A DNA stretch of 45,560 nucleotides from Candidatus Omnitrophota bacterium (GTDB lineage Bacteria; Hinthialibacterota; Hinthialibacteria; Hinthialibacterales; JAKPRU01), in assembly GCA_029570205.1 (NCBI GenBank), contig JAKQSI010000043.1:1-45560 (forward strand), in the 5' to 3' direction. Shown here in pieces: positions 233 to 24,950 of this stretch. The notes under the pieces were generated by a model. It saw nothing but the letters and a program-made list of their open reading frames with translations, had not been told where the DNA came from and did no database searches. The stretch's first letter is position 1. Each line of letters opens with the position of its first letter. The position numbers and the translations under genes are program-made.

Positions 233-1459
233 ATGAAGGACAGAAAGACCAATCGCAGAACGTTCCTGAAAACCGCGGCGGTTACGACAGCGGGATGGAG
301 CATTGTCAGCGCGCGTTCCGTGGCAGGAACGACGGCGAACTCCAAGATTCGCCTGGGCGTCATCGGGTCGGGAGGACGTGGATATTTTGTTTGCAGCAAG
401 TTCCAGAACAATGTCCCTGATGATGTCGAAATTGTTGCATTGCATGATTATTTCGAAGATCGTTTTGACCGGATTGTTGAGCGTTTCAAGGTTCCGAAGT
501 CTCGATGCTACACGGGCCTCGACGACTATATGAAGATTGTGGAGGCCGAGGATGTGGATGGGGTGATTATCACCAGCCCGCCCTATTTCCACCCGGAACA
601 GACGGAAAGGGCGGTCGCTGCGGGTAAGCATGTCTGGCTGGCCAAGCCCGTCGCCGTGGATGTTCCCGGCTGCCTGCGCATAAAGGAGACCGGCAAGAAA
701 GCCGAGGGGAAAGTGACGCTTCTGGTGGATTTCCAGAGCCGGAACAGCCCGTTCTTCATTGAGGCGGTCAAGCGGGTTCGTAATGGCGATATCGGTCCCA
801 TGATAACCGGGGAAGCGTTCAACCAGTTCGGGCGTGGGGGATGGGCAAACACGGAAGGAATGTCGAAAGTCGCCGCGCGCATCCGGAACTGGGGAACCGA
901 TCCTGTTCTGTCCGGAGATATCATTGTCGAACAGGCTGTCCATGCCATGGATATCGTGAATTGGATTATCGATGCGACGCCTGTGATGGCTTATGGAACC
1001 GGCGGCCTGAAAGTCCGCCTGAACGCCGGGGCAAACTGGGACCATTTCATAGTGATCTATACCTATCCGGGCGATATCCGGGTGGATCTGAATTGCTCGC
1101 AGTTTATGCAAAAAGGGTACGACAATCTCGGCGCGCGCATTTTCGGCGATTTGGGAGCCGTTCATGCGCATTATCGCGGCGCCGATTGGGGTGTGGGTCC
1201 GGTGAAGATCACGGGCCAAAATGAGTGGGCCGGAACCGAACACGACAACACCTGGGATATCGGCGTCAACAATAACTGCAAGGATTTCGTGAAGAGCATC
1301 CGCACCGGCGAGTTCATCAACCATGCCGATTACTCCGCGGACAGCGCCATGACCAGCGTCCTCGGACGCGCCGCCTCCTATCGGCAGGCGGAGGTCACAT
1401 GGGATGAGATTCTCAAGGCGAATGAAAAGCTGGACGCCGGTCCGGAGATCCGTGGATAA
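233..1459 (+). CDS. Gfo/Idh/MocA family oxidoreductase with Tat signal
   Basis: This is a predicted NAD(P)-dependent sugar or polyol oxidoreductase of 408 residues. The N-terminus carries a twin-arginine signal (NRRTFLK, arginines 8 and 9) followed by a short hydrophobic stretch, so export in folded form is likely. The Rossmann motif GVIGSGGRG lies at residues 41-49. The usual EKP motif reads AKP (WLAKPVAVD), which loses the common Glu. An in-frame ATG lies at 155, but the start at 233 is preferred because GGAAGGA lies about 10 bases upstream and the twin-arginine motif then falls at the right place. The next gene starts 20 bases downstream, so the two are probably cotranscribed. The substrate cannot be read from the sequence. 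Confidence 0.9.
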   Translation: MKDRKTNRRTFLKTAAVTTAGWSIVSARSVAGTTANSKIRLGVIGSGGRGYFVCSKFQNNVPDDVEIVALHDYFEDRFDRIVERFKVPKSRCYTGLDDYMKIVEAEDVDGVIITSPPYFHPEQTERAVAAGKHVWLAKPVAVDVPGCLRIKETGKKAEGKVTLLVDFQSRNSPFFIEAVKRVRNGDIGPMITGEAFNQFGRGGWANTEGMSKVAARIRNWGTDPVLSGDIIVEQAVHAMDIVNWIIDATPVMAYGTGGLKVRLNAGANWDHFIVIYTYPGDIRVDLNCSQFMQKGYDNLGARIFGDLGAVHAHYRGADWGVGPVKITGQNEWAGTEHDNTWDIGVNNNCKDFVKSIRTGEFINHADYSADSAMTSVLGRAASYRQAEVTWDEILKANEKLDAGPEIRG

Positions 1460-1479
1460 AACAGAAAGGATGACCCGAA

Positions 1480-2328
1480 ATGGCTGGAATCGGCTTTCAC
1501 ACTGATGCGTTCAACAGCAGCAATTACAGTTTCGATCAGTGCCTGGACTGGGCAAAGCAGCATCAACTGGAGTTCATCGAATGCGGCACAATCGATGGTG
1601 TCGCGTACCTCCAGGCGCTGGGGTACCATCCACACATTTCCCTGTATGAGGATCCCGTTCTGTGGCGCCGCAAATTGGAAACACAGGGCATTCAGATGAG
1701 CCAGATTGACGCCGCGTATCCGTTGACACGCATGGACGGTCTGACCGTCGGGGTTCGATATGTACAAAATGCCGTCCGCTGGGCGAATCACGCCGGATGT
1801 CCCGCTGTGGATACGACGGACGATAAACACAAGCCCGAAGGGATGAGCGACCGGGAGGGCCTTCAGCTTCTGAAGCAGGCTTATGGGGAGATTGTGAAAA
1901 TCGCCGAGGCGCACAAGGTCAGTGTAAATTGCGAGCCACACGGGTATTTCACAACCAAGCCGGAGTTCATGGCGGAGATACTATCCTTTTACGAGTCGCC
2001 GTACATCAACATGAACATGGATACCGGCAATACGTTTATCGCAGGGCAAGACCCTGTGGCGTTTGTGCAGCAGTTCAAAAACCGCATCCGTCATGTACAC
2101 ATTAAGGATGTCAGCGAATCCCTGGCAAAAGCCGCTCGCGGCGAACTGACCGGCATTGCGATGAGCCACTGCGCGATCGGCGATGGAGTGAACGCCGAGA
2201 ATATCCGCTCCTGTGTGGGAATTCTTCTAACAAACGGCTACAATGGTGTGTTCAGCCTGGAATGCGAAGGCTGCGTGTTAGAGAAATCCCTGGAGTGGTT
2301 CCGGCCATTGCTGGGGGAAATGAAGTAG
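1480..2328 (+). CDS. Sugar phosphate isomerase/epimerase, xylose isomerase-like TIM barrel
   Basis: This 282-residue protein has the pattern of the AP_endonuc_2 (xylose isomerase-like) TIM barrel family. Likely metal-binding segments include the Glu in CEPHGYF, the MDTGNT strand, HVHIKD and the Glu in LECEG near the C-terminus. Such proteins isomerise or epimerise sugars, often 3-keto sugars or inositol derivatives made by Gfo/Idh/MocA enzymes. Its position 20 bases after one such gene and upstream of a second fits this. AAAGGA sits 9 bases before the ATG. No signal peptide is visible, so it should be cytoplasmic. The exact substrate is unknown. Confidence 0.85.
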   Translation: MAGIGFHTDAFNSSNYSFDQCLDWAKQHQLEFIECGTIDGVAYLQALGYHPHISLYEDPVLWRRKLETQGIQMSQIDAAYPLTRMDGLTVGVRYVQNAVRWANHAGCPAVDTTDDKHKPEGMSDREGLQLLKQAYGEIVKIAEAHKVSVNCEPHGYFTTKPEFMAEILSFYESPYINMNMDTGNTFIAGQDPVAFVQQFKNRIRHVHIKDVSESLAKAARGELTGIAMSHCAIGDGVNAENIRSCVGILLTNGYNGVFSLECEGCVLEKSLEWFRPLLGEMK

Positions 2329-2339
2329 GGATTTCTGTG

Positions 2340-2385
2340 GTGGTCGTCGCAGGGGCGACGCATGCGTCGCCCCTGCGACGACCAC
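2340..2385. repeat. Perfect 46-bp palindrome
   Basis: The two 23-bp arms, 2340-2362 and 2363-2385, are exact reverse complements with no loop. The centre reads GACGCATGCGTC. It starts 11 bases after the stop codon of the isomerase gene. It could form a cruciform, or a hairpin in the transcript, but no U-tract follows, so a role as an intrinsic terminator is not supported. It resembles the short GC-rich palindromes dispersed in many bacterial genomes. Confidence 0.95.
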
Positions 2386-2428
2386 ATATCATGTCCCTCT
2401 TCCGGATGGAGAAGACAACGGACGCCGG

Positions 2429-2448
2429 ATTCCGGCTTTCGCCGGAAT
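2429..2448. repeat. Dispersed inverted repeat, copy 1
   Basis: ATTCCGGC and GCCGGAAT flank a TTTC loop. With its flanks this element shares 26 bp with the copy at 26814-26839, in opposite orientation. The same kind of element is widespread in bacterial genomes as a non-coding palindromic repeat. Confidence 0.9.
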
Positions 2449-2577
2449 GACGGCAGGCGAAATAGCGGTATGTGGGGTGTAAGGGTAGTTCTGAATTGCC
2501 CCGACGTGGCGAGAGAGAGGGTCGAGCGGTAAAGGAAACCGAAATACAGATATTCATACATAGAGAGGATCAACACT

Positions 2578-3852
2578 ATGGAAAACAACTATCCGACACG
2601 GCGTGAGTTTCTCAAGGCGGGTGTTACGGCAGGCGTACTGATGTCCGCTGTCAGCCCGGTCAGTTACGGACGGGTAATCGGGGCGAACGACCGGATCCAT
2701 GTTGGGGTAATTGGAGCGGGTGGGCGCGGACGATGGCATATCGGCTGGGTGCAGCGGTCCGCAAACAATGGGGAAAATGCCGAGGTTAACGCGGTCTGCA
2801 ATATCTGGAACGTGAAGCTGGAGGGCGCAATTCAAGAGGTCAAGGATCGCTTCAATCTCGAAGCGAAAGCATACCGGGATTACCGGAAGATGCTGGACGA
2901 CAAGGATATTGATGCAGTCACAATTGCCACGCCCGACCATCAGCACTGCGGGCAGCTCTGCGATGCGGTAAAGGCCGGGAAGGATGTCTATGTAGAGAAA
3001 CCCATCGCTGTGACATTGGAGGAACTCAACAAGACTTATGACATCGTAAAGGCCAGTAAATCCATCGTTCAGCATGGAACGCAGGGGCGCAGTAGCCTTG
3101 GCGCGGCGGCTACAAAGGAGTTCATTCAATCGGGCAAACTTGGAAAGATATTGCGGGTAGAGGAATCACGAAGCGCTTATGTCCCCTATTGGAACAACTA
3201 CACCTGTCCGGAGAAGCCGGAAGATACCGATTGGAAAGCCTTTCTGTACAATCTGCCGGATCGCCCGTTCAACGCGGACATGCACGGTTGCTGGATGGGA
3301 TATGCGGAATGCTCACCGGGAACCATCGGCGGCTGGATGAGCCACATGAGTGATTTTGTTCACTATATTACCGGGTGCGATTTCCCGCTGACTGCCGTGG
3401 CCCATGGCGGCATCTATGCGCTGACTTCTGTGGAAGGACGCACGTGCCCGGACACCAGCACGGCCGTCCTGGAATATCCTGAAGGATTTACTACGCTGTT
3501 CACCACCCATTTCGGAAACGGGGCCAATAACTACACAACGATTTTCGGCTCGAAGGGAACGATGCAGATCCAGGACCCCGACGGAAATCAAAAAGGGGGG
3601 ATCGCGCCGAAAGTCACGGGCGACGGCAGCGAACATCCTGAAAAAATCGGCGAGGGCGTAGAGATTCCGGAAATCCCGCAGGATGACCATATAATGAATT
3701 GGCTGAAATGTATCCGAAGCCGTGAGCAGCCCCATGCCGATATGGACGCCGGATATAAGCATGGTGTTGCGGTTCTTCTGGGTTGGATGGCATACCTGGA
3801 GGGCCGCAAGATGGCGTTCGATCCTCAAAAGCGGGAGATTCGGCCGGTGTGA
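2578..3852 (+). CDS. Gfo/Idh/MocA family oxidoreductase with Tat signal
   Basis: This is the second predicted NAD(P)-dependent oxidoreductase of the group, 424 residues long. The N-terminus has the twin-arginine motif TRREFLK (arginines 8 and 9) and a short hydrophobic segment ending near residue 30. The Rossmann motif GVIGAGGRG follows, and the canonical EKP motif is present (VYVEKPIAV). The C-terminal half has the alpha/beta domain typical of this family. GAGAGGA lies about 8 bases before the ATG. A 249-base gap filled with palindromic repeats separates it from the isomerase, so it may have its own promoter, although I could not identify a good one. It differs strongly from the first oxidoreductase, so this is not a recent duplication. 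Confidence 0.92.
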   Translation: MENNYPTRREFLKAGVTAGVLMSAVSPVSYGRVIGANDRIHVGVIGAGGRGRWHIGWVQRSANNGENAEVNAVCNIWNVKLEGAIQEVKDRFNLEAKAYRDYRKMLDDKDIDAVTIATPDHQHCGQLCDAVKAGKDVYVEKPIAVTLEELNKTYDIVKASKSIVQHGTQGRSSLGAAATKEFIQSGKLGKILRVEESRSAYVPYWNNYTCPEKPEDTDWKAFLYNLPDRPFNADMHGCWMGYAECSPGTIGGWMSHMSDFVHYITGCDFPLTAVAHGGIYALTSVEGRTCPDTSTAVLEYPEGFTTLFTTHFGNGANNYTTIFGSKGTMQIQDPDGNQKGGIAPKVTGDGSEHPEKIGEGVEIPEIPQDDHIMNWLKCIRSREQPHADMDAGYKHGVAVLLGWMAYLEGRKMAFDPQKREIRPV

Positions 3853-3878
3853 CATATCCCCCGCGTCAGTAACCCCCA

Positions 3879-3910
3879 CCCCTCCCTCCCCGTAAACGGG
3901 GAGGGAGGGG
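3879..3910. repeat. GC-rich hairpin repeat between convergent genes
   Basis: Two 15-base arms, 3879-3893 and 3896-3910, are perfect reverse complements around AA. The core CCCCGTAAACGGGG recurs in altered form near 26985 and 27035. It lies between two converging genes and could stop transcription from both sides, but neither strand has a T-tract, so this is first of all a dispersed repeat. Confidence 0.85.
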
Positions 3911-3939
3911 GAAAGCGCGCAGGGAAGCGTTCTCTTGCG

Positions 3940-4986
3940 TCAATCCGGCAATTCGGTCTCTATCTCGCCGTTGTCTACCTCGGCTCTGTCCGTCCGGCCA
4001 TTGTCCGGTTCGCCGTCGGAGTCCGGGGCGTGCCAGCGCGGAATGGGTTTCGTGAACAGGGAGCGACCGAGTAGATTTACATAGTCGGTCCACTCTCGTG
4101 TCGGATCGGAACTTTTCTCCATTTCGCGAATGGATGCGTTAATCTGTGCGTCCAGATTGTCTATGTAATGGAGAAGCGAGGCCTCCAGCGTCATCGGCAA
4201 AACCGGGGACCGTTCAATATCGCCGTGGTGAGAAATCAACATGTGTCGCAGGCGCATCAGAAGTTCATCGGGAAATCCTTCAACCTGCGCGGCATAGCGG
4301 CGCAGTAATTCATCACCGAGAATAACATGCCCCAGTAGCCGTCCCTGGTTCGTGTAGTCGAAAGCGATATCGTAGCGTAATTCCTGTACTTTTCCGATAT
4401 CGTGAAGGACCGCGCCGGTAGTCAACAGGTCCCTGTCGATCTTGGGATAGAACGGCGCGATGGCCCGGCACAACCCTGTAACCCAGAGCGTATGCTCCAG
4501 CAAACCGCCGATGACGGCATGATGCCACATTTTCCCGCCGGGGGCGCGGCGGAAAAGATTCTGGAACTCCTCATCCGCAAGAAAAACCTCCAGGATGTTT
4601 CGGCAGTATTCATTCCGAATTTCGTCTACAAACTGTCGGAGTCGTTCGATCAGTTCGGTTGAGGAGAACCGCGATTTCGGCAGGAAATCTTCGGGATTGA
4701 GATCCTCGTAGGAGTCGATTCGGGACAGGTAGACGACTTTCAGCTGCAGCTCGCCCCGATACGCTTCAACCCGTCCTTCAACCCGTGCCAGGTCGCCACT
4801 CCGCACGGATTCGTACGCTTCCGTTGCTCCTTGCCACATGACCGCCGAGATCTTGCCGGTAGAATCCGCGAGACGCAGACGGAGATACTCGCCGCGGTCA
4901 TAGTAACCGACGGAGATCCGGGAGACGACAAAAAGGTCCTCTATCTGGTCTCCCAACCGAAGATCCTTGACAAATTGGCTCTTCAA
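3940..4986 (-). CDS. YhaM-like 3'-5' exoribonuclease, OB-fold plus HD domain
   Basis: The 348-residue protein starts with an OB-fold nucleic-acid-binding domain (about 10-92) and continues with an HD metal-dependent phosphohydrolase domain. Visible HD residues are HH 155-156, His165, the HD pair 195-196 (LHDIGK), HH 253-254 and Asp276. This order and length match the YhaM/CBF1 family, which degrades single-stranded RNA or DNA from the 3' end. The charged C-terminal tail (from about 320) is not part of the family core. The start codon is TTG directly after the stop codon of the upstream chaperone gene, with AGGGGAAA just before it, so translation is probably coupled. No ATG fits better. Confidence 0.87.
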   Translation of the reverse strand: MKSQFVKDLRLGDQIEDLFVVSRISVGYYDRGEYLRLRLADSTGKISAVMWQGATEAYESVRSGDLARVEGRVEAYRGELQLKVVYLSRIDSYEDLNPEDFLPKSRFSSTELIERLRQFVDEIRNEYCRNILEVFLADEEFQNLFRRAPGGKMWHHAVIGGLLEHTLWVTGLCRAIAPFYPKIDRDLLTTGAVLHDIGKVQELRYDIAFDYTNQGRLLGHVILGDELLRRYAAQVEGFPDELLMRLRHMLISHHGDIERSPVLPMTLEASLLHYIDNLDAQINASIREMEKSSDPTREWTDYVNLLGRSLFTKPIPRWHAPDSDGEPDNGRTDRAEVDNGEIETELPD

Positions 4987-6834
4987 TTATTTCCCCTGTG
5001 GCTCGTCGTGGAAAACCTCCCGCGCGACGCCGCCGAACCGGCTGACCGCATCCCGAACGAGCGGATCGATTTCCACTTCGTCCCAGACCACCAGCTTCTT
5101 GGCCAGTTCATTCCGAAATTCCGTGCGCATTCGTCCGAGAACGATTTCGGTCAGACGAGGCCGAGCCTCCTCCAGGGAAAGAGGAACACGGTCATACATC
5201 TTCAACACTTTCACCACCGCAAATCCGCCGTCGCACGAAACGGGCTTTTCCGAGAATTGCCCTTCTTCGAGCCGGAACACTTCGCTGATATAGGTTCGCC
5301 CGCGATAGGCGCTCTGACTGTTCACCTTGCCGACGTAACCGCCATCTGCCGCGTTGGTCGCCTCGGAGACCTCCCTGGCTACAGCGGCGAAGTCTTCGCC
5401 TGCTTTGATCCGTTCGATGGCTTTCTCCAGAGCGCTCTGGGCCTCCTGTTGTGCCTTGAACACCCGATATCGCTCAGCGGTCTTTTCCTCGGGAACCGCG
5501 CGGAAAATCTCCGCGATCTCGGCATCACGAGGGGCCAATATGCGCATCTTGTTCTCCTCATACGCCTTCTGGATCATCTCTTCGGTAATCGGATGACTGT
5601 CCTTGTATTCCTTCCAGGCGTGATCGAAATAGGCCTTCTGGAGCCATTGGAGTTCATTCAATTGCTTTCGTTCGATACTCGGCAATCGTTTGTCTAATCC
5701 CATCTCACAGGCTTTCTTGTAAGCAATGAGTCGAAAAACGAGCTGATATCGAATAAAGGGATCGAGGCCGACTTTGTCAATTTCCTTCTGGACAGCTTCC
5801 TCTCGGCCTTTCACCATGAAACGGTAATAGCCCACGGTCAGCGGTTCCCCATAGACGGTGCATATAAGGTCCTCATCCTTAGCCGCGGGGTTCTTCACAA
5901 TCTCCGGATTCCAGCCTTTTACCGCCTCATCGAAGTATTTCGCCACCGTATCTTTCTTCAGTTGGGTTATGTAAGCCAGGCGGCGTTCATAATCGATTTC
6001 CCCACGAACCCGCTCGAATGGCTTCGGATCGGGAAGGACATGTTCCTCCAGGCGAAAGATTTCATAGCCGTATTTTGTTTTGATAATGTCGCTGTACTTG
6101 CCGGTTTCCAGTGCAAGGACGGCCTTTTGAATTTCCGGATTGATCCGTTTAGACTCATCCGGTTCATCGACTCGGAATGGTCCGACAATCTCGCCTTTCT
6201 TGGGAGAATCCGACATCTCACTGGCTACTTTGACGAAGTCCTCACCTGCTTTCAGACGGGCCAGGGCATCCTTGGCGCGCTGGAGGGCTTCCTTTTGCTT
6301 CTCGGCCGGCTCATCAATTGTCTTAAAGAAGATATGTCGGAACTGAAACCGTTCCTTTTCACGGTATTTATCAATATTATCCTCATAGTATTTCTTAAGG
6401 ACTTCTTCCGATCCGTCGTAGTTGTCATGGACATTCCTGCCTACGAAATAGTCGGCGAGCCAATCGATCTCTTTCCGATGGAGGGCTGAGGCGATTTCGG
6501 GTTTCTTATCAAAACCGAGTTTTCTTCCTTCCTCGGCTACACAGGCAGAAAAAACACTGTATTCCAGGAGATCCAGGATTTCCTGATCCTTGTCTTTGGG
6601 ATCCTCATCGTAAATGCGCTCCAGTGAGTTCATGTTGTATTGCATGAAAACCCCGGCTGTCATTTCAATCCCGCGATAGGAAAAGAGAACCGCATCGCGG
6701 GGAACAGGCGGTGTTGCAGATTGGACCTCGGACGCGGCGGTGGCATTAAGGACCTTCGCCTCCTCCACAGGCTCCTGCGCGAACACGGGCATCAACCAGA
6801 CACCGCACACAAGGTAAAACGAAAGTTTCTTCAT
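4987..6834 (-). CDS. Periplasmic peptidyl-prolyl isomerase with two parvulin domains
   Basis: This 615-residue exported foldase begins with a signal peptide (MKKLSFYLVCGVWLMPVFAQ, cleaved after VFA). A SurA/PpiD-type N-terminal helical region follows, then a first parvulin domain (about 162-264, RHIFFKTID to FRLEEH) and a second one (about 437-546, IAEIFRAVP to FAVVKVL). It probably helps outer-membrane or secreted proteins fold, which would suggest a diderm cell. An upstream ATG at 6852 is in frame. The ATG at 6834 is preferred because GGAGAAAGG lies 7 bases before it and the signal peptide then starts correctly. The YhaM-like gene follows without a gap. Confidence 0.9.
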   Translation of the reverse strand: MKKLSFYLVCGVWLMPVFAQEPVEEAKVLNATAASEVQSATPPVPRDAVLFSYRGIEMTAGVFMQYNMNSLERIYDEDPKDKDQEILDLLEYSVFSACVAEEGRKLGFDKKPEIASALHRKEIDWLADYFVGRNVHDNYDGSEEVLKKYYEDNIDKYREKERFQFRHIFFKTIDEPAEKQKEALQRAKDALARLKAGEDFVKVASEMSDSPKKGEIVGPFRVDEPDESKRINPEIQKAVLALETGKYSDIIKTKYGYEIFRLEEHVLPDPKPFERVRGEIDYERRLAYITQLKKDTVAKYFDEAVKGWNPEIVKNPAAKDEDLICTVYGEPLTVGYYRFMVKGREEAVQKEIDKVGLDPFIRYQLVFRLIAYKKACEMGLDKRLPSIERKQLNELQWLQKAYFDHAWKEYKDSHPITEEMIQKAYEENKMRILAPRDAEIAEIFRAVPEEKTAERYRVFKAQQEAQSALEKAIERIKAGEDFAAVAREVSEATNAADGGYVGKVNSQSAYRGRTYISEVFRLEEGQFSEKPVSCDGGFAVVKVLKMYDRVPLSLEEARPRLTEIVLGRMRTEFRNELAKKLVVWDEVEIDPLVRDAVSRFGGVAREVFHDEPQGK

Positions 6835-8227: not shown

Positions 8228-9168
8228 GTCACTCCCTCCGACATCATTACGGCCCGCCCACGCTTTCGCGCCAGTACCAGATCGCGGAAAAGGTCTTCGA
8301 TAGGACGATCCGTTCGGCACAAAGCATAGTCAATGCCCAGTTCAGCGGCTCCTTCCCGATAGGAACGAAGGAACTCGACAACCTTTTCCCGGTAGGCCTT
8401 GCAAAGGCGCTGCGGAACCGTTCGCAGTGTTTCTTCACCCTCAAGACCCAGGAAATCCACCGAGCCTCGATAAGGCAATTGAATCTCCTCCGGGGCCAGG
8501 ACATGAAACAGAATGATTTCATGTCGGCTTTTTCGAAGCATCGCCAACCCGTGAAGAACCTCCTCCGGTTCGTCCAAAAGATCGGAGAAAATCAGCACCA
8601 TGCCGCGCTTTCGAATCCGCTCGCCGATCAGATTCAGAACACGGCGAATCTGGGAGGGACCGGAGGAACTCGTGCGCGCCAAAGTCTCCAGGATTCCCAC
8701 CAGGTGATCGCGACGGCTGCGAGAAGGAATGAGCGTATCAATATCATTTGAGCAGCAGGCCAGTCCGGCAGCATCTCCCTGTCGCAGAAACAGGTAGGCG
8801 AACGAGGCTGCCAGCCGGACAGCGACATCGAGTTTGCTCAACGGCCGGTCCCCCCGGAATCCCATGGAGCCGCTCTGATCCACCGTCAGCATCACTTGCA
8901 GATTGGTGTCTTCCTCGAACAGTTTCACATGAAACCGGTCGGTTTTGGCATAAGCGCGCCAGTCGATCAACCGCAGTTCATCGCCGGGGTTATATGGGCG
9001 ATGTTCGCTGAACTCCACATTTCGCCCCTGGTACGGACTCCGGTGCAGACCGGACACGGCCCCTTCGACAGTTTCACGCGCGATCATTTCGAGTCGAACC
9101 GCTTCCGCACGAATCAGCGGGTCCAGGATTTCAGCCGAAGCGCGATTCGCAGAATAGGATTCTGTCAT
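8224..9168 (-). CDS. DUF58 domain protein with vWA-like metal site
   Basis: This 314-residue protein carries the DUF58 signature around residues 51-90 (EFSEHRPYNPGDE, then IDWRAYAKTDRFHVK). A von Willebrand A-like fold with the metal-site motif DQSGS (97-101) follows. No signal peptide or membrane segment is visible. DUF58 proteins usually sit beside a MoxR AAA+ ATPase and BatA-type genes and are thought to work in envelope processes. Here those partners are absent and the neighbours are a lytic transglycosylase (4-base overlap) and a secreted FecR/GspG-like protein (4-base overlap). The function is unknown. Confidence 0.9.
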   Translation of the reverse strand: MTESYSANRASAEILDPLIRAEAVRLEMIARETVEGAVSGLHRSPYQGRNVEFSEHRPYNPGDELRLIDWRAYAKTDRFHVKLFEEDTNLQVMLTVDQSGSMGFRGDRPLSKLDVAVRLAASFAYLFLRQGDAAGLACCSNDIDTLIPSRSRRDHLVGILETLARTSSSGPSQIRRVLNLIGERIRKRGMVLIFSDLLDEPEEVLHGLAMLRKSRHEIILFHVLAPEEIQLPYRGSVDFLGLEGEETLRTVPQRLCKAYREKVVEFLRSYREGAAELGIDYALCRTDRPIEDLFRDLVLARKRGRAVMMSEGVT

Positions 9169-10562
9169 TCTTTGTATCCAAATCGGATGTCATCGCCGAG
9201 GCCCCGTTCATCTTCACCATTGGGTCCCCGACTTCGCACATCCACAAATACGGTACCATTATCCCGAAAGATTTCGTAAACAAACGGATTACCCCAGAGA
9301 TCAACCTGAGGCAAATCGCCCGCCACATAAGGCCCCTGCCAGCCGTTTACACCGGGATTTTTAAACAGCGCCTCCATCCAGTCTTTCGGAGCAGGATAGG
9401 CGCCGGTGTCTTCCTTGTACTTGCGGATCGCGACCAGATAGGCAGCGATCATTTCGGCCATGCTTCGCTTCTCCGGCGGAACGATGAGCGATGAATCCAC
9501 CGGAACCCGCCACGGGAAAGCAGGCAGAACCGAACTCAGAATCGGCTTCGGCTCAGGGGAAGGCAAAACGGGATTCCATTTCATATCCAGGGTTTCGGGC
9601 TGCCATTTCATCCAGTCATTCCAGAGGGCGACCAGTTCGCGCCAATCATCACAAGGCGCCACCCCACCGGTTCCGGTCCCTTGCGCATCAAGCCAGCGCT
9701 CGCCAACGGCAACCTTTGGTGTGCGCAACCCCCCGGCATCGGTCAGAGCAATAGAATCGGAGAGGGGGATGATCTCGATTCCGCCGGATGGGGGAGTCCG
9801 AAGCGCCACGAGACGCTTGTTCAGAAAAATCTGTACACCATTGACAATCAGTTTGACTTTGCGTAAATCGCCCAGCGATAAAACGTCTACCCAAACCGTT
9901 CCGCTGAGCAGCTTCATTTCCAGACGATAGAGAAATGTTTCCGGCTCGAATGCGACGGATTGAATATCCGACCGGGTGGCCGCCGCAAAACCAAGTTTCG
10001 CGGCCGGTCCCAGGGTGAGGGTCAGGCGACTGTTGGGCGAAACCTCAAGGCGATGTCCGGGCGGAATACCGTCGCCCGGAGCAATCCGGCTTTTCCCTTC
10101 ACCCGCGGTTTCGGACAACTTTGTCAAATAGGCCCATCCCCGAACATCCGTCGCGGCAAGAGTGGCATCCCCGACGGGCGCCGCGGGCTTGGGAACAAAC
10201 TGCAAACTGGGGCTGATTTCAGGGACAATACGCCCCTCCTGGATCAGGGTTTGCAGCAGGGCTTGTGCTTCCGCTCGGTCGGCTTCGGGGTCTCGATTAT
10301 CCCGAACGCAGGACTTCACATAGTTCTTGTTGATCCACAGGACATTTCCCTGGGATATCACTCGGTATCCCCGATCCGCTCTCTCCTCCGGCGTTTCCAA
10401 AATACGGCAATAAAACCGTCTGCCGTCGTCAAAGATCAGGATATCGCCGCTCGACGGTGCGGGAATAAGGAAAATACAGAGAGATACCAAAAGCCGCAAA
10501 CGAAGCGGCATCCGATCAAATCGGTCAATTCCCGGGATACGGATCAACGGTTTCGTAGTCAT
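9165..10562 (-). CDS. Secreted protein with FecR-like region and GspG-like C-terminal domain
   Basis: With the ATG at 10562 the protein has 465 residues. A hydrophobic export signal (about 23-37, RLLVSLCIFLIPAPS) is followed by a small beta-rich segment. A FecR-like region (about 140-240: GDGIPPG, LEMKLLSGTVWVDV) comes next, then a proline-rich stretch. The C-terminal domain (about 368-465) resembles the globular part of type II secretion pseudopilin GspG: YLVAIRKYKEDTGAYPAP, GWQGPYV, DLWGNPFVYE and SRGPNGEDERGLGDDI. The pilin N-terminal helix and prepilin cleavage site are absent. Starts at 10613 (TTG, overlapping larB) and 10511 (ATG, giving a cleaner signal peptide) are also possible; none has a strong ribosome site. 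Confidence 0.75.
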   Translation of the reverse strand: MTTKPLIRIPGIDRFDRMPLRLRLLVSLCIFLIPAPSSGDILIFDDGRRFYCRILETPEERADRGYRVISQGNVLWINKNYVKSCVRDNRDPEADRAEAQALLQTLIQEGRIVPEISPSLQFVPKPAAPVGDATLAATDVRGWAYLTKLSETAGEGKSRIAPGDGIPPGHRLEVSPNSRLTLTLGPAAKLGFAAATRSDIQSVAFEPETFLYRLEMKLLSGTVWVDVLSLGDLRKVKLIVNGVQIFLNKRLVALRTPPSGGIEIIPLSDSIALTDAGGLRTPKVAVGERWLDAQGTGTGGVAPCDDWRELVALWNDWMKWQPETLDMKWNPVLPSPEPKPILSSVLPAFPWRVPVDSSLIVPPEKRSMAEMIAAYLVAIRKYKEDTGAYPAPKDWMEALFKNPGVNGWQGPYVAGDLPQVDLWGNPFVYEIFRDNGTVFVDVRSRGPNGEDERGLGDDIRFGYKE

Positions 10563-10609: not shown

Positions 10610-11386
10610 TCAATCATCGGGAACCGGGGGCCGACGTCCGGCGTTGATCCGGTGGGCGGCATAACCCGCGCCGAAGCCGTTATCGATGTTCACGACCATC
10701 ACCCCCGCGCTGCATGAATTCAGCATTCCAAGCAAAGCGGCCAGCCCGCCAAAATGCGCACCGTAGCCGATACTGGTCGGTACGGCGATCACCGGCACAT
10801 CGACCAGGCCGCCGACCACACTCGCCAGCGCACCTTCCATGCCGGCCACGACAATAATCACGTTTGCCTCTTTGAGCAGAGGCAACCGCTGGAAAAGGCG
10901 GTGAATTCCCGCCACGCCGACATCGGATGCCTCCCGGACATTCGAGCCAAGGAACCGTGCCGTAACAGCGGCCTCCTCGGCAACCGGCAGATCTGAAGTT
11001 CCGGCGCAGATTACCAGCACGTTCCCGACCGGAGTCGGGGCCGGGTCAGGACCGGGGACCGTAATCGCGCCGGAACGATCATGGAAAACCGCATCGGGAT
11101 AAAACTCCCGAACGCGACCATATAGTTCCACATTGGCCCGTGTGGCGAGAACCGGGGCGCCCCGTTGGCGAAGGCTCCGAATGATTGCCAGTGAGTCCTC
11201 CACCCTTTTGTTCGCGCAGAAAACCACTTCGGGACAGCCCTGCCTGAGATGCCGATGATGATCCACAACCGCGAATCCCAAATCCTCGAAAGGCAAATGT
11301 CGCAGTCGTTCGGCGGCCTCTTCGGTGGAGATTTGGCCTTGACGTACCGATTCCAGCAATTCCGTGAGCCAGTTTGGAGTCATCAT
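10610..11386 (-). CDS. larB: Nickel-pincer cofactor biosynthesis protein LarB
   Basis: LarB carboxylates and hydrolyses nicotinic acid adenine dinucleotide in the first step towards the nickel-pincer nucleotide of lactate racemase-type enzymes. The 258-residue protein shows the PurE-like fold motifs GTSD (129-132), AGMEGALASV (181-190) and NSCSAGVMVVNIDNG (223-237). The Cys at 225 and the Glu at 184 match the catalytic Cys and Glu known for the Lactobacillus enzyme. The N-terminal helical region (1-50) is also typical. No larC, larE or racemase gene is nearby. Two adjacent ATG codons at 11386 and 11383 are possible starts, and neither has a clear ribosome site. Confidence 0.92.
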   Translation of the reverse strand: MMTPNWLTELLESVRQGQISTEEAAERLRHLPFEDLGFAVVDHHRHLRQGCPEVVFCANKRVEDSLAIIRSLRQRGAPVLATRANVELYGRVREFYPDAVFHDRSGAITVPGPDPAPTPVGNVLVICAGTSDLPVAEEAAVTARFLGSNVREASDVGVAGIHRLFQRLPLLKEANVIIVVAGMEGALASVVGGLVDVPVIAVPTSIGYGAHFGGLAALLGMLNSCSAGVMVVNIDNGFGAGYAAHRINAGRRPPVPDD

Positions 11387-15445: not shown

Positions 15446-18400
15446 TTACTCCCACACCACCCCAATCCCCATCTCCCTCTCGATTCGCTCTGCCAGGGAA
15501 CGGATGTGATCCCGGACAGCGTTCTCCACTTCCGGTGAAGACAAGTCTGCGTCCCTGCCGAACTGCAGGCGCGTGTAATTTCGATAGGAGGGTATCCCGT
15601 TCACATCAATAACCTGTCCTTCGGCATTCAGATCGAGCAGGCGGATAACGACCTCCCCGACAGCCTCCCGCCGTTCGATTTCAACCCGGACCTGCGGGTA
15701 CAAACGACGGTATATCTCACGCACCTGATCCGCGCCTTCGGGGTTGTTGACATTCAGCCGGTCTCGCTCAATGGCGAGAGAAGGCGCGGCAATCGCAATC
15801 CCGCGAGAAGAAAGGATTTTCACGAGGTCGGCAAATCCGAATTCGGGCGGCCTTGGCCGGTTGTTCTGTTTCCTGCCCTGCTTTTCCCACTCGGCCATCT
15901 TGTCCAACCAGGTTTTGTATGGTTCTGATCGGCAGAAATACCCGTCTTTCAGTTCCTGCAAAAATGCAAAAACCTCCGGTTCGCCGGCGAAAATGCCGAC
16001 ATTCAGCAGACCCCGCCCGGCCCGCGCTTTCCGTGCCTGGTCGAAAAGGTTCTCGTCCGCTTTTTGCCAATTCCACAGAACATGCCCCCGGTCAGGACCG
16101 TCCGGGGCAACCAGGATCGGCGCATAAGGATTATCGCGGATGAGGGTCGGGATCACGAGCGGAACAAGAGAGCCGAGAGCCTGTTTCAGCCGAACCATTT
16201 TCGAAATGGTCTGAGCAGACTTGGTGGGCGCATCGGCGAAAATAAACAGGACAATGCCTCTATAGCCGCGAAGCGCCCGGGACGCGGTCAGATGCGCATC
16301 GCCATCGCCGAGTCGCTCGGCTTGAATGACATACTCAACAGAGAATCCGTGGTCCTCGTTGATTTCACTGCGCTGAAGCGACTCCGCGATTTCATCCCGG
16401 TTTTCCGCACCGACGATAACAACCACCCGTTTCGCGTACGGGGTCATGTTTCGAAGGCTCAGGAGCAGCATGTTGTCCCCGAAAAAGAGGCGGTGTTTCT
16501 GACCGTAGCCGCCGACCTCTTTCGCAATGCGCGTTCCCAGACCGGCCGCAGCAACAACCACGGCGGCCTCACGCTCCCCACAGATTTGAACAATTTCCCC
16601 CGCAAGTTCCAGGATTTTGGATTCCTCTTCCGCCGTGATGGACCGCCCGGCAGCCGCGTGAATGCGGTCCAGTATCTCCATCCGTCGCCGGTGCACCAGC
16701 AGCCCGGTCATTCCCCACGGACGTTCATCATCCGAATGCAGGTACGCGGCCATTTCCCCGAGTACACAATAGATACCGTAGAGCAGCCGCAGACCCAGAG
16801 TCTTCCGTGTTCGATCCAGGGCAAGCAGGTGTTCCACCCGGTCGCGAATCTGAAGAAGTTCTTGGAGGTCTTTTTCCGAATACAGAGGATCTTTCTCGCA
16901 GCCCAGGCTGTCCAACCCGGCGCGTTCGGACAGGAGAATCCAAGCCCTGACGGCTTCGCTCCAACTCTCCAAATGAGGAGAACGGCTTTCCGCCTCGCGA
17001 TGCCATTGGACAGTCTTGCGGATACCCTCGGCGATTTTCGTTTTGGGCCGGTATCCGATCAGCTGTTCGGCCTTGGAGATGTCGGCGCAGGTCAGCGGAA
17101 CATCCCCCAACTGTTCGGGAAGAATCTCCACCAGCCCCCTGGACTGCAATTCCTGTATGAGGGATGAAATCTCTTCATCCGGCAATTCTTTTGGATCACT
17201 TTCCAGATGGATCACCCCCAGGGAATCGGCGATCAGGAGAATCAATTCGCGGACACTGGTGGTATCGCATTCGCCAAGGTTGATGATTTCATTCCAGTTT
17301 TCGCGTCCGGCAGAGGCACGGATCGCTTGAAGAATGCCGTCGATGATATCGTCGATATAAGTGTAGTCGCGTTTGAATGAGCCATCGCCATATAGAGGGG
17401 CGGGCTTGCCCTGTCCCAGGCTTTCAATGAATTTCCGAACGGCCATGTCGGGCCGCCCGCCGGGACCGTAGACCGTGAAGAACCGCAGGCCGGTGACGGG
17501 GAAACCATACAGCCGGTGATAACAGGAGGCTTGCAGTTCATTCGCTTTCTTGCCGGCTGCATAAGGTGACACAGGGTGATCGACCGGCTGAGTCTCCGTG
17601 AACGGATATTGTTCACTTCCGCCATAGACCGAGGAGCTGGAAGCATAAACGAAATTTTTAACAGAGAATCTTCGGGCCATCTCCAGCAGATTCTGTGTAC
17701 CCAGGATATTTGTGGTGACATACAGCGGCGGGTCCTGGATGGAGGGACGTACCCCGGCTCGCGCGCCCAGGTGAACGATCTGGTCGATCCGTCGCGAAAG
17801 GAAAATCCGTTCCAACAGGCTCAAGTCCCGAAAATCGCCTTCAATCAGTTCAAAAGCCGGATGGTCCAGCATGGGCCGGATGTTTTCGTATTTCAGGAAC
17901 GGATTGTAATAGCTGTTGAAATCATCCAGGACAATGACGCGATGGCCTTCCTCCAAAAGGCGTTTTGCGAGATGAGAACCAATGAATCCCGCTCCGCCTG
18001 TGACCAGAAAGGTCTCCCCGGTATCGGAATCCGGCAGAGCATTCCGACGCAAACGGATTCGCCGACAGGCCACATTTCGCTGCTGCAATGCATGGCGTTC
18101 AAGTTTCTCCCAGTTTTTGTCCCGGAAAGCGGCGTTTTCCTGTGAGCGCAATTCGGCGGCTGTGCGCTGTTCCCAGAGTTCCTTGTGATCGGACGGTCGA
18201 GCAGGCGGGTGCAGAAATCCGGCCCCATCCACGGAATGGTTCCGCCGAACAGCTTGAGTGGTTTCATCAACCAGGAACAGATGAAAACTCGGCAGTCTCT
18301 CCGGCGAAACCGCAGCATTGTCTGCAAGAGAAATAAGGTGGCCTGTGAACTCCCTGTCTTTCTCGGTCGGCTCCCAGGGAGCGCTTGAATCCAGCGCCCG

Positions 18401-20149
18401 GCATTTCCGCGCCCACAATTCCGTCAGTTGTTCGCGAAGGCCGGCGGCATCTTTTCCCGCGGTTTCACAGAACCATTGGGCGGCACATTCGGAAAGGCTT
18501 CGCTCCTGCTCGGCGCGGTAGAATTGAATCAGGCTGCGCTTGAGAGACTCGAATCGGTCCTGTTCCACAAGAACCGTCACAACACCGCCCAGACCCGCGC
18601 CGGTAAGCGAAGCGCACGCGGCTCCGTTTTCCCGACAAACATCCACAATTCGGTCCAGCAGCGGATGCCCCGCGCCATACGCGCCGGTCTGATATTCCAG
18701 CTGCGCATTTCGGACTCGCTGTTCATCGCCGGAGCGAAGATCCGCTATGAGATTCCGAAGATACTCATCGGATATATCGTGCCGTTTGGGTGCGTAATTC
18801 CCGCGTGAGTCTTTTTCGATGATGCGATCCCCATCATGTCCCAGGTTGACCAGCCTTGCCGCTTCATCATAACGTCCTTCGGCCAGAAGCCGCGCCCATC
18901 GGGTACTTCTTCGGCATTCCGAAAGCCCGTAGAGCGCAACGCCACGCAGGTCGATGCTGGCAGGACAGGGCCGGTTGCCGAAATAGGTCTCGCGGAGAGA
19001 TCTTACATCAATGTCTATATCTCGACCGATTCTCTTGAGACTGTTTTGAATCCGATCAATATGCATTTCAATTTCGGTGAAACGAATCGAGCACGGCAAG
19101 CGAAGCAGGGCGCGATAGATCAACTCCGGCAGGAAGCGGTCCGGATGGATGTCCGCCAAGTACCGTGTCCGGGCCACAGTCTGGGCATCGGCTCCCACTT
19201 CGAGCAGCGCATTCAGAACGAACGGGAAGGCGATTCGATAGGCGAAAACCCGCCCGCTGTAACCGATACTCTGAGCGCCCTGAAGTTGATGAGATGTGAA
19301 GGAATCGACGATCACCGGAATATAATGAGGTGGAAAGGAAACACAGGTCGGGGCGATGGTGTTTTCCTCGATCACCGGAGAGGCCATGATCCGATTGCGC
19401 CTGCCGAAGATCATCGTGGTCTGGTCACCAAGGCCGGTACGGCTCCCGGCAAACCATTCCGCCTCCTGAGCGCAGATCACCGCCTTTCGTTTCGTCAACC
19501 GCAGGCCGTTCACCGCCACAGCGGCCAGCACAGAGACCACACACAACGCATGGGAGGAGCTTTGTCCTGTCCCGATGGGAATATCGCCCGCCACGAACAA
19601 ATCCGCTCCTTTCGGTTCGATGCCGGGGAACCGGTCCAGGACCGATAGAAAAGCTCCTTTCACATAGTCCGCCCAAATCGTTTTTCCTTTCCCGACCGGT
19701 TCCCGGTCAGCCGGGGAAAAGGATATCTCCGGGAACTGGGAATTCGTGTTTCGGATATGGACAACGGCATCTGTTCGGGGGGCAACGACAGCCGTCATTT
19801 CGGACTCGTCGGTTGTGGCGTTATACCAGCCGCCCTGGTGATCGACATGATGGCCTTCCCAGTTGATTCGGGATGGGCATCCGACCAGCCAGACTTGGGT
19901 CTGCGAATCAAGCGATGCGCAGGCGCACTCCAGGGCACGGAGATATAGCGCGGCGCGTCGCTGAAGAATCGTCGGGTCGGACCCGAAAGTCATCTGCATG
20001 AACTCGCGAAAGGAAGCATCGGACAGAGATAGAAGATCCCGCCATTCGGCAATGGAACGTCGATACGCCTCCATGGAATCGAAGATATCCATTTCGGAGC
20101 GGGGACCGGGATCGGGGATCAGGAGCAGCAGATCGGGATCAATGAACAT
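15446..20149 (-). CDS. Trifunctional GHMP sugar kinase, UDP-hexuronate-type 4-epimerase and GlmU-like nucleotidyltransferase
   Basis: One 1567-residue reading frame holds three enzymes. Residues about 85-550 are a galactokinase-like GHMP kinase: SRINWEGHHVDHQGG (93-107), GDIPIGTGQSSSHAL (188-202), the likely catalytic Asp242 in GLGDQ, and SLTGAGLGG (514-522). Residues about 712-1050 are a short-chain epimerase: TGGAGFIG (717-724), SSSSVYG, the Tyr863/Lys867 pair and VYGPGGRPDM, most like UDP-glucuronate 4-epimerases. Residues about 1194-1480 are a nucleotidyltransferase like GlmU: AAGLGTRIA, Lys1218, QAERLGDGDAH, the Asp of FADAP and LNVGIF. Helical linkers of about 150 residues separate them. 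A stop codon directly precedes the ATG in frame, which fixes the start. The activities would convert a free sugar to a nucleotide sugar and its C4 epimer. Confidence 0.9.
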   Translation of the reverse strand: MFIDPDLLLLIPDPGPRSEMDIFDSMEAYRRSIAEWRDLLSLSDASFREFMQMTFGSDPTILQRRAALYLRALECACASLDSQTQVWLVGCPSRINWEGHHVDHQGGWYNATTDESEMTAVVAPRTDAVVHIRNTNSQFPEISFSPADREPVGKGKTIWADYVKGAFLSVLDRFPGIEPKGADLFVAGDIPIGTGQSSSHALCVVSVLAAVAVNGLRLTKRKAVICAQEAEWFAGSRTGLGDQTTMIFGRRNRIMASPVIEENTIAPTCVSFPPHYIPVIVDSFTSHQLQGAQSIGYSGRVFAYRIAFPFVLNALLEVGADAQTVARTRYLADIHPDRFLPELIYRALLRLPCSIRFTEIEMHIDRIQNSLKRIGRDIDIDVRSLRETYFGNRPCPASIDLRGVALYGLSECRRSTRWARLLAEGRYDEAARLVNLGHDGDRIIEKDSRGNYAPKRHDISDEYLRNLIADLRSGDEQRVRNAQLEYQTGAYGAGHPLLDRIVDVCRENGAACASLTGAGLGGVVTVLVEQDRFESLKRSLIQFYRAEQERSLSECAAQWFCETAGKDAAGLREQLTELWARKCRALDSSAPWEPTEKDREFTGHLISLADNAAVSPERLPSFHLFLVDETTQAVRRNHSVDGAGFLHPPARPSDHKELWEQRTAAELRSQENAAFRDKNWEKLERHALQQRNVACRRIRLRRNALPDSDTGETFLVTGGAGFIGSHLAKRLLEEGHRVIVLDDFNSYYNPFLKYENIRPMLDHPAFELIEGDFRDLSLLERIFLSRRIDQIVHLGARAGVRPSIQDPPLYVTTNILGTQNLLEMARRFSVKNFVYASSSSVYGGSEQYPFTETQPVDHPVSPYAAGKKANELQASCYHRLYGFPVTGLRFFTVYGPGGRPDMAVRKFIESLGQGKPAPLYGDGSFKRDYTYIDDIIDGILQAIRASAGRENWNEIINLGECDTTSVRELILLIADSLGVIHLESDPKELPDEEISSLIQELQSRGLVEILPEQLGDVPLTCADISKAEQLIGYRPKTKIAEGIRKTVQWHREAESRSPHLESWSEAVRAWILLSERAGLDSLGCEKDPLYSEKDLQELLQIRDRVEHLLALDRTRKTLGLRLLYGIYCVLGEMAAYLHSDDERPWGMTGLLVHRRRMEILDRIHAAAGRSITAEEESKILELAGEIVQICGEREAAVVVAAAGLGTRIAKEVGGYGQKHRLFFGDNMLLLSLRNMTPYAKRVVVIVGAENRDEIAESLQRSEINEDHGFSVEYVIQAERLGDGDAHLTASRALRGYRGIVLFIFADAPTKSAQTISKMVRLKQALGSLVPLVIPTLIRDNPYAPILVAPDGPDRGHVLWNWQKADENLFDQARKARAGRGLLNVGIFAGEPEVFAFLQELKDGYFCRSEPYKTWLDKMAEWEKQGRKQNNRPRPPEFGFADLVKILSSRGIAIAAPSLAIERDRLNVNNPEGADQVREIYRRLYPQVRVEIERREAVGEVVIRLLDLNAEGQVIDVNGIPSYRNYTRLQFGRDADLSSPEVENAVRDHIRSLAERIEREMGIGVVWE

Positions 20150-20451
20150 TCACTCACCATCATCCGGCTATTGGAATAAGTATCGGACACAAGTCCCGTA
20201 GCATATCATTCCTGGCAAAAGGATTTGAGACCGCCGGCGGGATTGGGACCATTCTGTAAATTACAAAAACGATGAAACTGCCGTGTCCTTGGACGACCGG
20301 CCTGCAAACCTTTGTCTGCGCTCCTGGAAACAATTTCCGCAATCCGACTCCTGATCGGTCGGAGGCTTCTCAAGTTGCGCTCCGCTTGAGTCTTTCCGGA
20401 GGGCATGATACGTTGGTGCATAAGAATTTGACTGTGCGAGAGATCCCGATC
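20150..20451. other. Intergenic region between divergent sugar-activation genes
   Basis: This 302-base stretch must hold promoters for both directions. I found no convincing -35/-10 pair on either strand, no strong palindrome and no small gene. An open frame continues upstream from 20452 to 20272 but lacks a ribosome site and conserved residues. Confidence 0.5.
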
Positions 20452-21426
20452 ATGAGAGCCATTATTCCGGTAGCCGGGCAGGGAACACGTCTCCGACCCC
20501 ACACACACACTGTGCCGAAGGTGTTGTTACAGGTTGCGGGAAAGCCGATCATCGGCCACATCCTGGATCAGTTACAACCGCTCGGGATTGATGAATTGGT
20601 CCTCGTGGTGGGGTATCTCGGGGAAATGGTCCAGGAATATGTGCGTTCTCACTATTCGTATAAAACAACCTACGTGGAACAGAAAGAATTGCTCGGACTG
20701 GGACACGCGATTTATCTGGCCACCCAGAAAACCGGACCCGGCCCTGCATTGATTATTCTGGGCGATACGATTTTCCGCGCCGATCTGCACCCGGTGCAGA
20801 ACTCGAAATGCGCTCTCCTGGGCGTGAAACCCGTGGAGGACCCCCGCCGATTCGGAATTGCGCAGATCGCAAACGGACGTGTCGTGCGACTGGTGGAGAA
20901 ACCGGACCGTCCCTCCTCGAACCTGGCCATAGTCGGAATCTATTATGTACCCGATCTTCGACCGCTTGCCGAGTGCCTCCAAACCATTGTGGAGGAAAAA
21001 CGAACCACGAAGGGCGAATTCCAGTTGACCGATGCGCTTGAACTCCTGCTCCAGAGAGGCTTGGAAATGCGCCCGCTGCCGGTCGAAGGCTGGCTGGACT
21101 GCGGAGAGCGCGAAACCCTGCTGGACACAAATCGGCAGTTGCTGATCTCGAAAGGCTATCATCGTTCGCTGGAAAACAGCATCATCATCGATCCGGTGTA
21201 CATAGCCGATTCGGCGATTATCGACCATTCCATTATCGGCCCCTTCGTATCTGTGGCGGAGAACTCGACTATTGAGCGGTCCGTTCTTCGCGACAGCATT
21301 GTGAACCAGGGCGCCACCGTAAGAAATACCTGCCTGGAGCAGTCCATTGTCGGGGAAAACGCTGTTGTGTTCGGCCGAATGAGCCATCTCAACGTCGGCG
21401 ATTCCTCCGAAATCGATTTTACGTGA
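20452..21426 (+). CDS. Hexose-1-phosphate nucleotidyltransferase with left-handed beta-helix tail
   Basis: The 324-residue enzyme joins a sugar-1-phosphate to a nucleotide. The N-terminal half has the signature GQGTRLRPHT followed by PK (9-23), an LGDT metal site (103-106) and VEKPD (148-152). From about residue 225 the sequence shows hexapeptide-like turns (IADSAIIDHSIIG, IVGENAVV) of a left-handed beta helix. It resembles glucose-1-phosphate thymidylyl- or uridylyltransferases and mannose-1-phosphate guanylyltransferases. The nucleotide and sugar are not decided by sequence alone. The frame is open back to 20272, but family similarity starts exactly at the ATG at 20452. It is divergent from the trifunctional gene and 36 bases before ahcY. 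Confidence 0.88.
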   Translation: MRAIIPVAGQGTRLRPHTHTVPKVLLQVAGKPIIGHILDQLQPLGIDELVLVVGYLGEMVQEYVRSHYSYKTTYVEQKELLGLGHAIYLATQKTGPGPALIILGDTIFRADLHPVQNSKCALLGVKPVEDPRRFGIAQIANGRVVRLVEKPDRPSSNLAIVGIYYVPDLRPLAECLQTIVEEKRTTKGEFQLTDALELLLQRGLEMRPLPVEGWLDCGERETLLDTNRQLLISKGYHRSLENSIIIDPVYIADSAIIDHSIIGPFVSVAENSTIERSVLRDSIVNQGATVRNTCLEQSIVGENAVVFGRMSHLNVGDSSEIDFT

Positions 21427-24067: not shown

Positions 24068-24151
24068 GATCGGCCCTCTATTCTTTACCGAATGCTCTGG
24101 AATTGGATAACTGTACTCCCCGTCTCCATCCTTGACGCCCCGTAAAAAGTG

Positions 24152-24950
24152 TCAGACGGTTTGGGGCAGGAAAAAGTAGTTTTTTCCTTTGATCTGCGCC
24201 ACCAGGCACGAAAACCAAGTCCGAACACGAAATCGGGTCGATTCTCGACCGAAAACACTCCAAAAAAGCGTTCCGAGCGGTTTGATCCTCTCCGAAACCG
24301 CCTGCCCACACCGCAGAATGTTCATTCCCAGCGCTTTCAACCTCACCGCAAAGCACACCGCTCCCATCCTCCCGCACCCGCAACCGCTTCGCTCCCAGCT
24401 GCAACTTGTACCGCGACATCGTCCCCTCTATCCCCGCTCGCCATCGATACTTCTCCCGAAACGCCGGACCCTTCTCCTTCGCTCGCCGACACGCCAACCG
24501 AAATTTCTTCCCCGTATACGGCTTCAACCGCGCCGACTGCGGCCCGATTCTCACTGGACAACGCCTTCGCAACTCACACCCTAAACACTTCTCTCGATTA
24601 AAATTCGCCGTGTACTCCCCGCTCGGCCTACACCCCGTTCGGATCGGTCTCTCTCCCGCCGGGCAGCGACTCACTTCCCCCGTCTCCACCTCAAACGCCG
24701 CCAACAACCGATCCGTCAGGTCCAGCATCTGTTGCAGCGCCACCACCCCCGCCATCGTGTACAACTCTTTCGTCGGACGGCCCTGCTTCGCATCAAAACA
24801 CAACCGGCCCTGTTCGATCGGCAGCCACTCCAGCAACTCCCCCCGAACTATTCCCGGCCACCCCTTCGCCAACATCTTCTTCCGCTTCTCCCCCAGAAAC
24901 TGCCACTCATCAAACAAATACGGCGTCGCTCGATCTCGAATCCGTTGCAC
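24152..24950 (-). pseudogene. Decayed DDE transposase of IS1182/ISNCY type
   Basis: An N-terminal piece (FDEWQFLGEKRKKMLAKG, then GRPTKELYTMAGVVALQQM) runs straight into a C-terminal piece (CPAGERPIRTG, CLGCELRRRCPVR, YRWRAGIEGTMSRYKLQLG). The catalytic centre that should lie between them is missing. Near 24365 the frame changes: the conserved continuation VRLKALGMNILRCGQA is read one frame over, to a stop at 24152. The element is therefore dead through an internal deletion and a frameshift. A good promoter and a GTG start with GAGGG remain at its 5' end. I could not define terminal inverted repeats or a target duplication. Confidence 0.85.

Follow-up and report, generated by a model that had tools for sequence, protein, structure and literature searches.

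A single-chain kinase-epimerase-nucleotidyltransferase from a Candidatus Omnitrophota bacterium as a candidate trifunctional enzyme of hexuronate salvage

Described sugar-activating enzymes and the window protein

Direct activation of free uronic acids has been described in plants and in some animals and some fungi. The plant galacturonic acid kinase, attributed to Yang in 2009, is reportedly a galactokinase-like GHMP kinase acting on galacturonic acid (GalA); compared by description only, it is a single-domain enzyme, unlike the protein considered here. To our knowledge, no bacterial enzyme with a kinase-epimerase-nucleotidyltransferase architecture has been described, and we know of no earlier description of a fused operon of uronate kinase, epimerase, and nucleotidyltransferase. 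No paper describing such a chain was found in literature searches, whose incomplete coverage makes this no proof of absence. A gene encoding a chain of this kind is located in the window, i.e., the whole 45,560-nucleotide stretch of DNA analyzed (contig JAKQSI010000043.1). The window genome is a metagenome-assembled genome (MAG) of 4.39 Mb in 131 contigs, and the MAGs closely related to it are filed under Candidatus Omnitrophota.

The zebrafish protein DrGKUP, a glucuronokinase/putative UDP-GlcA pyrophosphorylase, resembles the putative window enzyme in that a single chain for the salvage of free uronate contains both a uronate GHMP kinase and a nucleotidyltransferase, but DrGKUP has the order nucleotidyltransferase then kinase, a C-terminal kinase of the GlcAK-type branch, and no epimerase (PMC3938481). 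Fusions of the DrGKUP type were reported in eukaryotes, while the bacterial and archaeal nucleotidyltransferase homologues stand alone (PMC3938481). L-fucokinase/GDP-fucose pyrophosphorylase (FKP) is also a one-chain kinase and nucleotidyltransferase salvage enzyme; it differs in using fucose and GTP, in its nucleotidyltransferase family, and in having no epimerase (PMC11982464). The kinase part of the window protein showed modest fold similarity to the FKP structure 9iip (Z 10.5), and the fucokinase/pyrophosphorylase family was represented neither in the Pfam scan nor among the 25 NCBIfam models listed, so the protein falls outside the FKP family. The UDP-GlcA 4-epimerases BcUGAepi (6zl6) and MoeE5 (6kv9), along with Klebsiella epimerase 5u4q, align in register with the specificity region of the window epimerase but are stand-alone enzymes without a kinase or nucleotidyltransferase. 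The uridylyltransferase domain of GlmU has its motifs in common with the first two thirds of the window nucleotidyltransferase; in the latter, however, no left-handed beta-helix acetyltransferase domain was found, and its scores are far below the GlmU family cut-offs. The window protein is best filed as bifunctional sugar-1-kinase/pyrophosphorylase-like, with an additional epimerase, a different domain order, and a divergent nucleotidyltransferase. Biochemists have reported that they lack a usable GalA kinase and have taken other routes to UDP-GalA (PMC7984243).

Domain architecture and conserved residues

The gene is a single frame with no internal stops. Its extent of 4704 continuous bases had been given exactly in the initial annotation, which left out the strand, and the three enzyme families and their order read there were recovered by Pfam, NCBIfam, and PDB profile matches (Table 1).

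Table 1. Positions of the gene, its predicted parts, and the downstream neighbor in the window
Feature	Residues	Position	Strand	Basis or remark
Trifunctional (predicted) kinase-epimerase-nucleotidyltransferase gene	1-1567	15446..20149	minus	ATG to TAA, 1567 aa
GHMP (galactokinase-type) sugar-1-kinase module	about 1-650	18200..20149	minus	Pfam GHMP N and C; predicted fold; matching end of stand-alone homologues
Kinase sugar-site motif GHHVDHQGG (galactokinases: GEHTDYNxG)	99-107	19829..19855	minus	Invariant in family
Fusion junction and helical lead-in of epimerase unit	651-711	18017..18199	minus	Boundary between the two separate genes of L008 and of L009
NAD-dependent UDP-uronate 4-epimerase domain (predicted)	712-1055	16985..18016	minus	Pfam; residue match to BcUGAepi, MoeE5, and 5u4q; fold
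Putative carboxylate-gripping Ser838-Ser839-Ser840 (BcUGAepi Thr126-Ser127-Ser128)	838-840	17630..17638	minus	Alignment; no decarboxylase Glu
Arg899 (BcUGAepi Arg185)	899	17453..17455	minus	Alignment; role from PMC12338863
Helical region between epimerase and nucleotidyltransferase	1056-1190	16580..16984	minus	Predicted mostly helix
GlmU-like nucleotidyltransferase domain (AAGLGTR, QKH, FADAPTK, WNWQKADE, DRLNVN)	about 1191-1485	15695..16579	minus	GlmU model matches
C-terminal extension	1486-1567	15446..15694	minus	Conserved in family (family alignment)
WecG/TagA-type glycosyltransferase fused to polyprenyl-phosphate sugar-1-P transferase (EPS_sugtrans), 690 aa		13234..15306	minus	Downstream, co-directional

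In the kinase module, Pfam GHMP_kinases_N (residues 162-249, 39.7 bits, cut-off 22.3) and GHMP_kinases_C (residues 468-545, 29.1 bits, cut-off 21) both exceeded their curated cut-offs, which together with a Gly/Ser-rich phosphate loop assigns it to the GHMP kinase superfamily. Its motifs include PIGTGQSSSHAL and TGAGLGG. The best PDB match by sequence was human GalNAc kinase (E 9.6e-22). The predicted structure tracks galactokinase over its whole length; comparison of model residues 66-646 with galactokinase 1pie gave a Z score of 16.8 and an rmsd of 7.5 over 352 aligned residues, the rmsd being high because the model is of medium confidence (pLDDT 74). By family cut-offs, the module is not a galactokinase, with 86-90 bits against the 227-443 required by the NCBIfam galactokinase equivalogs. 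His99 takes the place of the galactokinase Glu in every family member seen. This Glu (Glu43) presumably contacts the sugar near C6 (O6), although the papers searched held no support for the O6-contact residues of galactokinase; a His in its place would suit a carboxylate. A canonical galactokinase (L060) with the motif GEHTDYNDG is encoded elsewhere in the window genome. In addition, contig 20 of this genome carries a paralogous galactokinase-like kinase (L002:1435-3153, minus strand) with the motif GVHVDHRGG, adjoined by glycosyltransferase-like and methyltransferase-like ORFs.

The central domain matched Pfam Epimerase/GDP_Man_Dehyd over residues 715-1046 with >200 bits, above the curated cut-offs. 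In BcUGAepi, the carboxylate of UDP-GlcA is held by Thr126, Ser127, and Ser128 and by the main chain of Thr178, and the third position of the Thr126-Ser127-Ser128 set is Glu in decarboxylases (PMC7984243); Arg185 binds the carboxylate of UDP-GalA (PMC12338863). The residue register was read from HMMER alignments, in which Ser838, Ser839, Ser840, Thr892, and Arg899 are in register with 6zl6 and 6kv9, and the FFTVYGPxxRPDMA and SSS segments with the carboxylate-binding residues. The third position is Ser840 rather than the decarboxylase Glu, and MoeE5 has SSSS at this site. The domain thus carries the sequence features of UDP-glucuronic acid 4-epimerases, namely the catalytic Tyr863 and Lys867 (YxxxK), the carboxylate-binding set, and no Glu at the position of residue 128. 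When PDB entries were ranked over the specificity region, the Klebsiella epimerase 5u4q came first, followed by BcUGAepi and MoeE5, with UDP-GalNAc and UDP-Glc epimerases behind; the UDP-GalNAc epimerases WbgU and WbpP were also among the epimerase matches. The predicted fold superposed on 6zl6 with a Z score of 30.5 and an rmsd of 2.7 over 302 residues, but many SDR epimerases scored equally, and the modeled fold alone does not choose among them.

The C-terminal domain was matched by NCBIfam GlmU models over residues 1192-1324 (E 1.6e-10 for the full protein and 2.9e-11 for the isolated region); GlmU models also matched all six family members. Among PDB entries, the family profile found M. 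tuberculosis GlmU (E 2.7e-7); the alignment pairs the GTR loop and the metal-site Asp, both of which are invariant in the family. With its GxGTR loop with Lys, metal-site Asp, and significant profile match, the domain shows the sequence features of the broad class of GT-A type sugar-1-phosphate nucleotidyltransferases. No Pfam nucleotidyltransferase model reached its cut-off for the window protein. Of the Pfam domains expected in the initial annotation, GHMP_kinases_N/C and Epimerase/GDP_Man_Dehyd were found above cut-off, while NTP_transf_3 was borne out only in part, GlmU models matching instead. The last third of the domain is unalignable to GlmU, a hexapeptide acetyltransferase domain was absent from the Pfam scan, and the GlmU equivalog scored 42.7 bits against 505. 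Judged from these matches, the domain appears to be a real but divergent GlmU-like domain and, by family cut-offs, is not a GlmU. The region between it and the epimerase showed 80% identity between congeners, below the catalytic domains. Structure prediction, which had also been suggested, yielded a kinase like 1pie and an epimerase like 6zl6; over the nucleotidyltransferase region the model was of low confidence, its structure comparison covering the epimerase only. The divergently transcribed gene at 20272-21426 (plus strand) encodes another sugar-1-phosphate nucleotidyltransferase, one that ends in a left-handed beta-helix; the long RmlA and archaeal GlmU models match it best, with scores below their cut-offs.

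Proposed hexuronate salvage and alternative readings

The window protein is probably a single-chain trifunctional salvage enzyme that would convert a uronate to uronate-1-phosphate and then to UDP-uronate, with interconversion of UDP-GalA and UDP-GlcA. In this scheme, the N-terminal GHMP kinase would use ATP to phosphorylate C1 of a hexuronic acid in its free form, D-galacturonate being the likeliest substrate, and the C-terminal GlmU-like domain would convert the 1-phosphate and UTP to UDP-galacturonate. The central NAD-dependent SDR domain would interconvert UDP-galacturonate and UDP-glucuronate, either being then available for polymer synthesis. The catalytic motifs are conserved, and the kinase, nucleotidyltransferase, and C4-epimerase chemistry deduced in the initial annotation is supported. 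Uronate as the substrate is suggested by the residue pattern and one gene neighborhood, and UTP as the nucleotide by the likeness to GlmU and the UDP-specific epimerase relatives; we also infer the polymer destination and any channeling between the active sites. Since the kinase is of galactokinase ancestry, a galacto-configured entry sugar would be favored, and thus galacturonate over glucuronate. The choice among galactose, galacturonate, and glucuronate offered in the initial annotation was narrowed accordingly: the epimerase and kinase residues and the neighborhood of one relative point to hexuronates, and galactose is disfavored.

The neighborhood in question is that of an Acidobacteria-labelled MAG (L008), whose contig also carries genes for the uronate isomerase UxaC and, next to it, a GntR/FCD regulator, as well as an ORF that partially matches an NDP-sugar dehydrogenase (E 3.8e-9). 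The gene content of this locus ties one relative to uronate metabolism. Four genomes from the phylum of the window (MAGs 90-94% complete, fusion-bearing ones included) were searched for UxaC and none had it, with the control positive in 7 of 14 known genomes; these four may therefore not catabolize uronate via the UxaC route. Genes of the UDP-glucose/GDP-mannose dehydrogenase family are present in the window genome, therefore UDP-GlcA is probably also made de novo, and salvage would probably supplement this supply.

Among the alternatives, the salvage of a neutral sugar or N-acetylhexosamine, from Gal or GalNAc through Gal(NAc)-1-P and UDP-Gal(NAc) to UDP-Glc(NAc), is unlikely but survives best. 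The match of the kinase to human GalNAc kinase leaves room for a hexosamine, GlmU, which the nucleotidyltransferase resembles, is a GlcNAc-1-P uridylyltransferase, and WbgU and WbpP are UDP-GalNAc epimerases; however, the epimerase specificity region is nearer to the UDP-GlcA epimerases, the kinase lacks the Glu common to galactokinase and GalNAc kinase, and the genome has a separate canonical galactokinase. An ordinary Leloir galactose enzyme was disfavored on the kinase and epimerase residues and the separate galactokinase gene.

Somewhat less likely again is the same three-step uronate layout in which another nucleotide takes the place of UTP or the entry sugar is GlcA. UDP-sugars are the substrates of epimerases of this type (PMC7984243), the only informative relatives of the nucleotidyltransferase are the UTP-using GlmU enzymes, and the ancestry of the kinase is galactokinase-like, although the nucleotidyltransferase is too divergent for a nucleotide assignment and the two-domain zebrafish analogue uses GlcA (PMC3938481). 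Quite improbable is a protein with one dead or regulatory module, likeliest the nucleotidyltransferase, which would leave effectively a kinase and an epimerase. The high divergence of this domain would fit such a loss, as would DrGKUP, whose pyrophosphorylase activity was not demonstrable despite a conserved sequence (PMC3938481), but the motifs of the domain are invariant, GTR loop and metal-site Asp among them, and its dN/dS is below those of the other two parts (0.065, against 0.107 for the kinase and 0.098 for the epimerase; NG86, two complete copies).

The more detailed form of the trifunctional salvage proposal, i.e., a bacterial enzyme making UDP-GalA and UDP-GlcA from free galacturonate (or glucuronate), with a galactokinase-branch uronate-1-kinase, a uridylyltransferase of a new family, and an operon fused into one gene, is evenly balanced between holding and failing. 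If true, the supply of UDP-GalA and UDP-GlcA from free sugar by one chain would be practically useful, and the gene would be a clear case of an operon turned into a multifunctional enzyme, other lineages still having the two genes unfused.

Origin of the fusion, distribution, and gene context

A search for the same architecture found a full-length homologue in a second MAG of the genus, belonging to another species, with the identical length of 1567 aa, 87% identity, and no indels. In a third MAG of the genus, the protein is split over two contig ends (95-96% identity), and the pieces share a 3-residue overlap. Between the two complete copies, dN/dS was ~0.12 over the whole protein and about 0.19 across the fusion junction (NG86); the values for the kinase, epimerase, nucleotidyltransferase, and junction are low, and therefore every part is under purifying selection. 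A frameshift or assembly error joining separate genes, which the two separate genes in relatives from other phyla might suggest, can be dismissed, as the same frame and 1567-aa architecture recur in the independent second MAG and selection is unbroken through the junction. The ORF was confirmed as an intact gene; the assembly join, lack of homologues, and loss of catalytic residues about which the initial annotation had cautioned were not seen.

The kinase and the epimerase-nucleotidyltransferase were neighboring or fused in three lineages. Both L008 and a Myxococcales-labelled MAG (L009) carry them as adjacent same-strand genes, with a gap of ~47 bases in the former; in the latter, GAGGAGA comes after the TGA stop of the kinase, and an ATG lies 9 bases past that stop. 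The stand-alone kinases end in ...SVAGAGYLxxP, the counterpart of which in the window protein is SVDGAGFLHPPA, just ahead of the junction, and each separate epimerase unit starts with the helical lead-in, around residue 660. As the ends of these adjacent genes match the junction, the fused protein derives from a pair of genes that became joined in this genus. In G000's class (G000 being the window genome), G009 has the two parts on different contigs, and the three-domain fusion was not found at any related locus outside the genus. The restriction of the three-domain form to one genus and the two-gene relatives had not been seen in the initial annotation.

The nucleotidyltransferase family is rare, occurring in 4 of the 14 genomes of the window's own phylum in the collection used and in 1 of 329 and 1 of 347 genomes in two other phyla of known occurrence; all occurrence counts for the fusion and this family hinge on MAG binning. 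Three further phyla were empty in searches without a positive control, which therefore show nothing. A phage or plasmid origin was rejected, since no relatives were found in viral contigs and the plasmid search gave only one stand-alone epimerase.

Only the kinase/epimerase-nucleotidyltransferase pair was kept between lineages, no other neighbors being conserved, and gene neighborhood conservation was accordingly rejected as a functional clue. The WecG/TagA-EPS_sugtrans fusion gene also lies downstream in L005 and not in L007-L010. Its product is a possible, unproven consumer of UDP-sugars, and a surface polymer as their destination, raised in the initial annotation, is plausible but unproven. 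In the L008 cluster, a 1702-aa ORF (951-6059, plus strand) had no Pfam match and an NDP-sugar dehydrogenase match at 1022-1156, and a 539-aa protein with weak ATP-grasp/RimK similarity is encoded upstream of the kinase gene (8367-9986, plus strand); the latter might modify the uronate carboxyl group. A LarB gene (nickel-pincer cofactor synthesis) lies near the fusion at 10610-11386 (minus strand), and a LarA-family racemase gene directly follows the epimerase-nucleotidyltransferase gene in L007 (11716-12999); either placement may be a coincidence. A DDE transposase remnant (Transposase DDE domain; 24078-24950, minus strand) adjoins a URO-D family methyltransferase-like gene. The RNA polymerase beta-prime subunit encoded in the rpoB-rpoC-rpsL-rpsG-fusA run (37057-42009, plus strand) has 1650 aa and is seemingly longer than usual.
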